Source: Micromonospora chersina (lineage in GTDB: Bacteria > Actinomycetota > Actinomycetes > Mycobacteriales > Micromonosporaceae). Taken from it: a DNA stretch of 64,000 bases. Positions within the stretch are counted from its first letter, which is position 1. Every line of letters starts with the position of its first letter. Where the stretch lies: the NCBI RefSeq assembly GCF_900091475.1, contig NZ_FMIB01000002.1, forward strand, positions 3,472,001 through 3,536,000, written 5' to 3'. Shown one piece after another: positions 9,682-10,797 of this stretch. The position numbers and the translations under genes were made by a program. Below the pieces are notes generated by a model. It was not told the DNA's origin and made no database searches. It saw only the letters and a list, made by a program, of their open reading frames with translations.

Positions 9682-9792
9682 CCCGGAACGCCGCGAGGCC
9701 CCGGAGCGGATCGCCCCGGGGCCTCGTCGACGAAAACGTCAGTGCGGCGCGCCGGGAACACCCGGCGTCGTGGTCCTCACCGCGCTGCGCAT
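9682..9792 (-). promoter_or_regulatory. Putative threonine attenuator leader of thrS
   Basis: Between the leader peptide and thrS the minus-strand RNA can form alternative stems. Stem A is CGCCGGG-TGTT-CCCGGCG (9750-9767), directly after the Thr codons. Stem C is GAGGCCCCGG / CCGGGGCCTC (9716-9725 with 9695-9704, 11-base loop). A long-range stem pairs CCCGGCGCGCCGC (9744-9756) with GCGGCGTTCCGGG (9682-9694), 12 of 13 positions counting one G-U, and encloses stem C. Stem A and the long-range stem share bases, so only one can form. No T-box consensus was seen. Seen directly; the regulatory role is inference. Confidence 0.65.
9739..9792 (-). CDS. Thr-rich leader peptide of thrS (17 residues)
   Basis: A short open frame on the thrS strand, ATG at 9792, stop TGA at 9741-9739, encoding MRSAVRTTTPGVPGAPH. 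It holds three consecutive Thr codons (ACC ACG ACG, 9774-9766) about 125 bases upstream of a threonyl-tRNA synthetase and just before competing RNA stems. Ribosome stalling at these codons when charged tRNA-Thr is scarce is the classic attenuation logic. No clear ribosome binding site precedes the ATG; in-frame GTGs at 9828 and 9846 would give longer versions. Confidence 0.6.
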   Translation of the reverse strand: MRSAVRTTTPGVPGAPH

Positions 9793-9866
9793 GCGGCGAC
9801 GGTACGCGCGGCGGCGCGGCTGGTGCACCTGGATTCCGCGACGCACCCGGCGGTGGTGCGGTAGGA

Positions 9867-10155: not shown

Positions 10156-10797
10156 GTGGCGGTCGTGGCCGAACTCATCTCTGACGTCGCGTCGCCCACG
10201 TGGGCGTACGCGGTGCTGCTCACCCTGCTGGTCGCCGACGCCTTCGTGCCGGTGGTGCCGACCCAGGTCGTCATGATCACCAGCGGGGCACTGACCGTCT
10301 ACGGCGGGCTCAACCTGCCGCTGACCATCGCGGTCGGCGCGCTCGGCGTGTTCGCGGGCGACCTCGCCTGCTACGTGCTGGGCCGCACCGCGCCCACCCG
10401 CCGCGAGCCGCGACACGGGACGCCGGGACGGGCCCGCCGGGCCGCCGCCCGGGTCACCCGTGGCCTGCGCGAACCCGGGCCACTGGTGATCCTGCTCTGC
10501 CGGTTCGTGCCCGGCGGCCGGATGGCGGCCTGCTTCTCGGCCGGGCGCAGCCGCTACCCGTACCGCCTCTTCATCCTGTACGAGGCCGCCGCGGCCGTCT
10601 GCTGGGCCGCGTACGGGACGCTCGTCGGCCACCTCGGCGGAGCGGCGCTGACCGAGTCGGCGTGGCGGCTGCTGCTGATCGGCGGCACGGCGGCGGCCGG
10701 GTTCGCGGCGGCAGGCTGGGCCATGACGGCGATCAGCGCCCGCCACGCCCACTCGGAGGCCGAGGCAACGGTCGAGGAACCGACGATCGCCTCCTGA
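10156..10797 (+). CDS. DedA-family membrane protein
   Basis: A 213-residue DedA/SNARE-associated (PF09335-type) membrane protein. Family features seen are the re-entrant hydrophobic VADAFVPVVPTQVVMITSG segment, the G-x-FAGDLACYVLGR motif near residue 75 and the R-F-V-P-G-G-R motif near residue 115, followed by further membrane helices. The family is linked to undecaprenyl phosphate or phospholipid scrambling and membrane homeostasis; the specific job here is unknown. GTG start at 10156. Somewhat short loop between the two halves, rich in Arg. Stands alone, divergent from thrS. Confidence 0.8.
   Translation: MAVVAELISDVASPTWAYAVLLTLLVADAFVPVVPTQVVMITSGALTVYGGLNLPLTIAVGALGVFAGDLACYVLGRTAPTRREPRHGTPGRARRAAARVTRGLREPGPLVILLCRFVPGGRMAACFSAGRSRYPYRLFILYEAAAAVCWAAYGTLVGHLGGAALTESAWRLLLIGGTAAAGFAAAGWAMTAISARHAHSEAEATVEEPTIAS

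Follow-up and report, generated by a model that had tools for sequence, protein, structure and literature searches.

The auxiliary short threonyl-tRNA synthetase (ThrRS) gene of Micromonospora chersina that lies on the minus strand of the DNA stretch analysed here (64,000 nucleotides, hereafter the window) is very probably preceded by a leaderless, ribosome-mediated attenuator. The switch is read from the anatomy of the locus, its conservation among relatives, the spacing of its parts and a promoter match. RNA polymerase would start at or beside the AUG of a short leader open reading frame (ORF) that carries a run of Thr codons. When Thr-tRNA is plentiful, the ribosome would reach the leader stop codon and cover region 2 of the transcript, the hairpin formed by regions 3 and 4 would fold, and transcription would end. 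When tRNA-Thr is uncharged, either from a shortage of threonine or from inhibition of the main ThrRS, the ribosome would wait on the Thr codons and mask region 1; region 2 would then pair with region 3, no terminator would form, and the short ThrRS would be made. A promoter of the WblC/WhiB7 type would add translation stress as an input to the same gene.

Locus anatomy and conservation of the leader

The leader ORF (9792-9739, on the minus strand like all features below unless stated otherwise) encodes the 17-residue peptide MRSAVRTTTPGVPGAPH and is predicted, from its sequence and conservation, to be leaderless. It holds three adjacent Thr codons, ACC ACG ACG (9774-9766), which are the proposed sensor, and ends at a TGA stop codon (9741-9739). 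A first hairpin, P1, starts within the last Thr codon, and the leader stop is followed by 12 nt, a 15-bp hairpin, the Shine-Dalgarno (SD) sequence AAGGAG (9653-9648) and the thrS start codon (ATG, 9641), which lies 97 nt past the leader stop. The initial annotation of this DNA had recognized the 17-residue leader with its three adjacent Thr codons and had placed thrS about 125 bases further on, a distance that holds when measured from the last Thr codon.

The downstream gene (9641-8424) had been called a ThrRS gene, and its product of 405 aa does score above the TIGR00418 cut-off (424.3 vs 383.65 bits), but it is an auxiliary (spare) short form: Pfam finds in it just the catalytic and the anticodon-binding domain, TGS and editing domains being absent, and a full-length ThrRS, 41% identical to the short one over the shared part, is encoded elsewhere in the same genome. 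By sequence, the closest solved structure is the ThrRS of entry 1nyq, which we take to be that of S. aureus.

The first set of related loci comprised the best 80 of 221 relatives from a genome-contig scan, which came from Micromonosporaceae together with six Streptomyces and one Kitasatospora. An even sample of the class (295 genomes) yielded 50 matches to the short ThrRS at 398 bits or more, spread over 5 of 39 families, and the next matches below them sat in long frames at no more than 366 bits; the 50 loci, the window included, were read as well, giving 130 loci. Another 40 Micromonosporaceae loci brought the total to 170, four of which are duplicates; the rest comprise 166 distinct leader regions, with 138 distinct peptides. 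All of these loci are related by descent, and the conservation counts are not independent trials. The short ThrRS is common but patchy in its occurrence: it was found in 82 of 121 Micromonosporaceae genomes and 28 of 38 genera (E 1e-115 or better), and the class sample contains two further genomes of the window's genus, of which one is without it.

Conservation of the Thr codons in relatives, which the initial annotation had named as support for its proposal, is complete: at 170/170 loci a short ORF with a Thr run precedes the short ThrRS gene, the run having at least two Thr codons in all 166 distinct leader regions. Across the 130 loci the run is three codons long in 125 and two in 5, and Pro follows it at 129 loci and Ser at the remaining one. 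The 138 distinct peptides have TTTP in common and little else, as illustrated by MHQQQQSTTTPGFPATFC and MLQVKATTTPVSPARSC, and the leader offers an example in which the Thr-Pro core and the RNA hairpin are kept and the remaining peptide, even the frame after TTTP, drifts. A fixed test, requiring TANNNT at 12-13 nt upstream of a start codon, an ORF of 8-45 codons and two Thr in a row, was passed by 39 of the 40 added Micromonosporaceae loci, and in the other one (L193) the layout is the same but the spacing is 14; scanning with this test brought up one extra ORF, in L174, without the rest of the layout. Upstream of full-length thrS, the fixed test gave 0/12 control stretches (11 genomes, both strands, with approximate gene starts), and the contrast with 170/170 loci lends strong support from conservation to the core of the earlier proposal, an attenuator with a Thr leader peptide ahead of a ThrRS gene.

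The Thr runs are biased to ACG (439 of 493 codons in the 166 leader regions); in four ORFs of the window, ACC is ahead of ACG, 44 to 15. Given the ACG bias, the thing sensed may be a single tRNA-Thr. With model R1 run on the genome, the window copy scored 67.2 bits and the next place 29.3; the terminator arms are poorly aligned in the R1 alignment, so that weak R1 hits mean little. A second match to the Thr-codon and P1 pattern in the genome (L152, G000:C2:2514373-2514399) carries ACCACCACGTCGGGGGAGTGCCCGGCG.

Hairpins, alternative pairings and the step under control

The 7-bp stem first noted at 9750-9767 holds up as P1 (regions 1:2, CGCCGGG-TGTT-CCCGGCG, 9767-9750), which is seen both in the fold (-14.1 kcal/mol, z -4.7, 1/200 shuffles as good) and in the conservation of its pairs: 6/6 core pairs are present in 158 of the 166 regions and 5/6 in the other 8. 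P1 is nearly invariant, with paired changes seen as single cases, for example at L019, L040 and L175 and, for the inner pair, at L172 and L176, and because it hardly varies, covariation tests its pairing little. Its 3' arm starts 16-23 nt past the first Thr codon, and 3-17 nt separate the end of this arm from the stop, a spacing suited to masking whether the ribosome waits or terminates; the sizes of ribosome footprints underlie this argument.

The second hairpin had been described as a perfect 10-bp hairpin at 9695-9725. A hairpin is indeed there, but it is a 15-bp stem (regions 3:4, 9726-9694) that includes one G-U pair and closes on a loop of 3 nt, folding at -33.2 kcal/mol (z -6.3, 0/200 shuffles as good). 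Compensatory changes occur at several of its pairs in the 107 of 130 loci compared; one pair is G-C in 52 loci, A-T in 42, G-T in 4, T-A in 3 and C-G in 1, and is unpaired in 5. The 23 loci left out of this comparison include a subgroup of 14 in which the ungapped search found the inner 6 bp only, and at L132 a homologous second hairpin was not found. Compensatory changes, which the initial annotation had named as a check, are plain in the terminator-like hairpin and few in the nearly invariant first stem.

The tail of this hairpin is U-poor in the window: there is no U-run, and a simple terminator scan of the window finds no terminator. T content in the tail is 2.89 of 12 in the Micromonospora group vs 4.11 elsewhere (110/130 loci), and T-runs are present at some other loci, for example L077 and L198. 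The U-poor tail of the window's group would suit conditional Rho-dependent termination, in which early cessation of leader translation would expose RNA and the hairpin would only block or anchor the 3' end. We consider this very improbable, as the GC-rich 15-bp hairpin with its compensatory changes fits a terminator, and a ribosome stalled on the Thr codons would help Rho and reduce expression at threonine shortage, which is the wrong sense for a synthetase gene. For the attenuator we favour intrinsic rather than Rho-aided termination. At L084, L117, L121, L194 and L195, the tail just after the hairpin reads UCGUCG(U), which is complementary to ACG Thr codons. Complementarity of the Thr codons to the tail (UCGUCGU) over at least 6 letters in a row was seen at 10 of the 69 loci in the Micromonospora group and at 19 of the 61 others, and a pairing of this kind is a weak lead.

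The proposed antiterminator (regions 2:3, 9714-9757) would pair TCCCGG (9757-9752) with CCGGGG (9719-9714). The P1 3' arm is able to pair with the CCGGG[GC] motif of the next hairpin, and this motif occurs at most 45 nt past the leader stop in 129/130 loci, vs a frequency of 0.195 in shuffles. In the window, the 2:3 fold has an energy of -21.9 kcal/mol (z -1.85); over the 130 loci, the 2:3 energy is below the 5% shuffle level in only 8%, with a mean of -17.7 vs -15.7. Since these energies are not clearly better than in shuffles, the antiterminator is a structure that we infer.

The initial annotation had instead drawn attention to a long-range stem (9744-9756 with 9682-9694), and its 12 of 13 pairs are there in the window, where 0/50 shuffles are as good and the stem is within the minimum-energy fold; the complete leader (9800-9642) folds with a z of -4.48. 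As the alternative structure of the switch, this stem is nevertheless the least plausible of the readings weighed here. It is conserved only in part of the Micromonospora group, at least 11 pairs being possible in 25 of 69 loci there and in 2 of 61 others (27/130 in all), and the mean of the others is at shuffle level (7.89 vs 7.83 pairs). The terminator, moreover, lies inside this stem and would be left intact by it rather than opened. Pairing of region 2 with the terminator 5' arm appears, from the sequences, the likelier candidate.

Translational attenuation, in which the leader ribosome would govern access to the thrS SD and not termination, could explain the T-poor tail in the Micromonospora group and the predicted pairing of the SD there, which exceeds that of shuffles (0.91 vs 0.63; higher in 61/68 loci). 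Outside this group, predicted SD pairing equals shuffles (0.67 vs 0.67; higher in 24/54 loci, with 8/130 loci left out of the comparison as a whole), and no consensus fold of the SD region was found in 23 representatives, which makes translational attenuation an unlikely account of the element. Translational control is allowed in the window's clade by the predicted pairing of the SD, and sequestration of the SD might possibly act as a second control layer, in the Micromonospora group only, beside the transcriptional attenuator that we prefer. The initial annotation had seen no T-box, and in agreement with this, a search of the window against Rfam gave no family at gathering score, T-box included; six loci had no match to the T-box models even at E values as high as 1.

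Predicted transcription start and promoter

The -10 box TACCGT (9799-9804) stands 12 nt before the leader start codon in the window, and TANNNT is found at -12 to -14 from a leader start codon in 166/166 distinct regions. When the leader start was chosen blind to the promoter, the motif was at -12 or -13 in 122/130 loci, with other offsets at no more than 2 loci each; the remaining 8 fit once an in-frame start further downstream is taken, which was selected with knowledge of the promoter. From this position of the -10 box relative to the leader start, the leader is predicted to be leaderless, with transcription starting at or beside its AUG. The predicted start thus lies upstream of 9739, the position downstream of which a start would, according to the initial annotation, speak against the attenuator.

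The promoter common to the loci is GAAATC-CGG-GTGCG, mostly 18 nt upstream of the -10 box. WblC-activated promoters of S. coelicolor have been described as GAAAWY, 3 nt, TKGMNN, 16-19 nt and TANNNT (PMC7157823). The window promoter, with GGAATC (9837-9832), 3 nt (CAG), a -35-like GTGCAC (9828-9823), 18 nt and TACCGT, matches 5 of the 6 letters of GAAAWY and 3 of the 4 of TKGM in this S. coelicolor consensus. GAAAWY is matched in 5 or 6 letters at 96/130 loci, compared with ~1% of shuffles (both at the best of four spacings); at 16/130 loci three letters or fewer are matched, a point against the favoured reading. The genome encodes a WhiB7-type protein (L151) with EPWGVWGG and RGRP, the meaning of the EPW and RGRP motifs in such proteins being taken from PMC10727445. 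A second input from WblC/WhiB7, conveying general translation stress, is probable, and the promoter match suggests WblC control in this genus. Divergent from the attenuator promoter, on the plus strand (10156-10797), lies a gene for a VTT-domain (PF09335, DedA-like) membrane protein.

Related actinomycete systems and the spare synthetase

In S. coelicolor, ribosome-mediated attenuation reportedly controls an auxiliary TrpRS that is resistant to indolmycin (Vecchione and Sello 2010, cited in PMC4787780). This system resembles the present one in having a spare synthetase gene under a leader-peptide attenuator, but concerns Trp and not Thr, with resistance reportedly shown for the TrpRS alone. 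A 2005 survey described Streptomyces attenuators before trpS and leuS, which likewise combine a leader peptide, an antiterminator and a terminator upstream of synthetase genes, and for threonine operons it reported no conserved structure (PMC1262725).

Control of an actinomycete ThrRS by a Thr leader was initially taken to be unusual; it is less so, as thrL-thrS of S. lividans was reported in 2021 (PMC8079986). That reannotation of strain TK24 lists thrL, with the leader MKRVRPFLETTPGFVPAR, before thrS, and the system resembles the window's, for which a leaderless leader is predicted, in being reported as leaderless from RNA-seq and in having one hairpin and no U-rich run; its termination was called unclear by the authors. 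Unlike the window, it has two Thr and belongs to another species, and its thrS (SLIV_19410) may be the short form; the available thrL section of the report is without comparative analysis, alternative pairing or a link to WblC. The second ThrRS gene of S. coelicolor, thrS2, presumably also the short form, is WblC-activated with the same promoter consensus, but in the available text no leader or attenuator is mentioned for it (PMC7157823). The element is well supported and its type was already known, a Thr leader (thrL) before thrS having been published for S. lividans and WblC targeting of thrS2 for S. coelicolor, and what is added here is breadth, geometry and the promoter link; among the matches listed, literature titles and abstracts did not describe the element in Micromonosporaceae or its tie to WblC.

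The element joins the Thr leader of S. lividans, thrS2 of the WblC regulon and the spare synthetases of actinomycetes into one conserved, testable module, and it points to a shortage of charged tRNA-Thr as the likely circumstance in which the widespread short ThrRS genes are used. More tentatively, and as one possibility among others, it could form a two-input bypass circuit in several actinomycete families, in which WblC/WhiB7 would open the promoter under translation stress and the leaderless, mainly ACG-tuned leader would release the editing-less ThrRS only at uncharged tRNA-Thr, and the cell would thereby survive natural compounds that inhibit its main ThrRS, with Ser misincorporation as the cost.

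Resistance to inhibitors on the part of the short enzyme was considered through residues of the borrelidin pocket at positions from PMC4389257, with E. coli and human numbering by our own mapping, and the lack of a clear contrast between short and full-length forms neither supports nor disproves it. The position of human H391 is Tyr in both the window's short ThrRS and the full-length ThrRS of the genome; that of E. coli L489 is Lys in the short and Gln in the full-length enzyme, and in the short family (n=170) it is Gln in 81, Lys in 76 and Leu in 3, with 10 unread. The core of the Thr leaders, TTTPG, recurs in the published "methionine" leader metL of S. lividans, MSTTSDRTPATEATTTPGARCMCRRMCAF (PMC8079986, Table 4).
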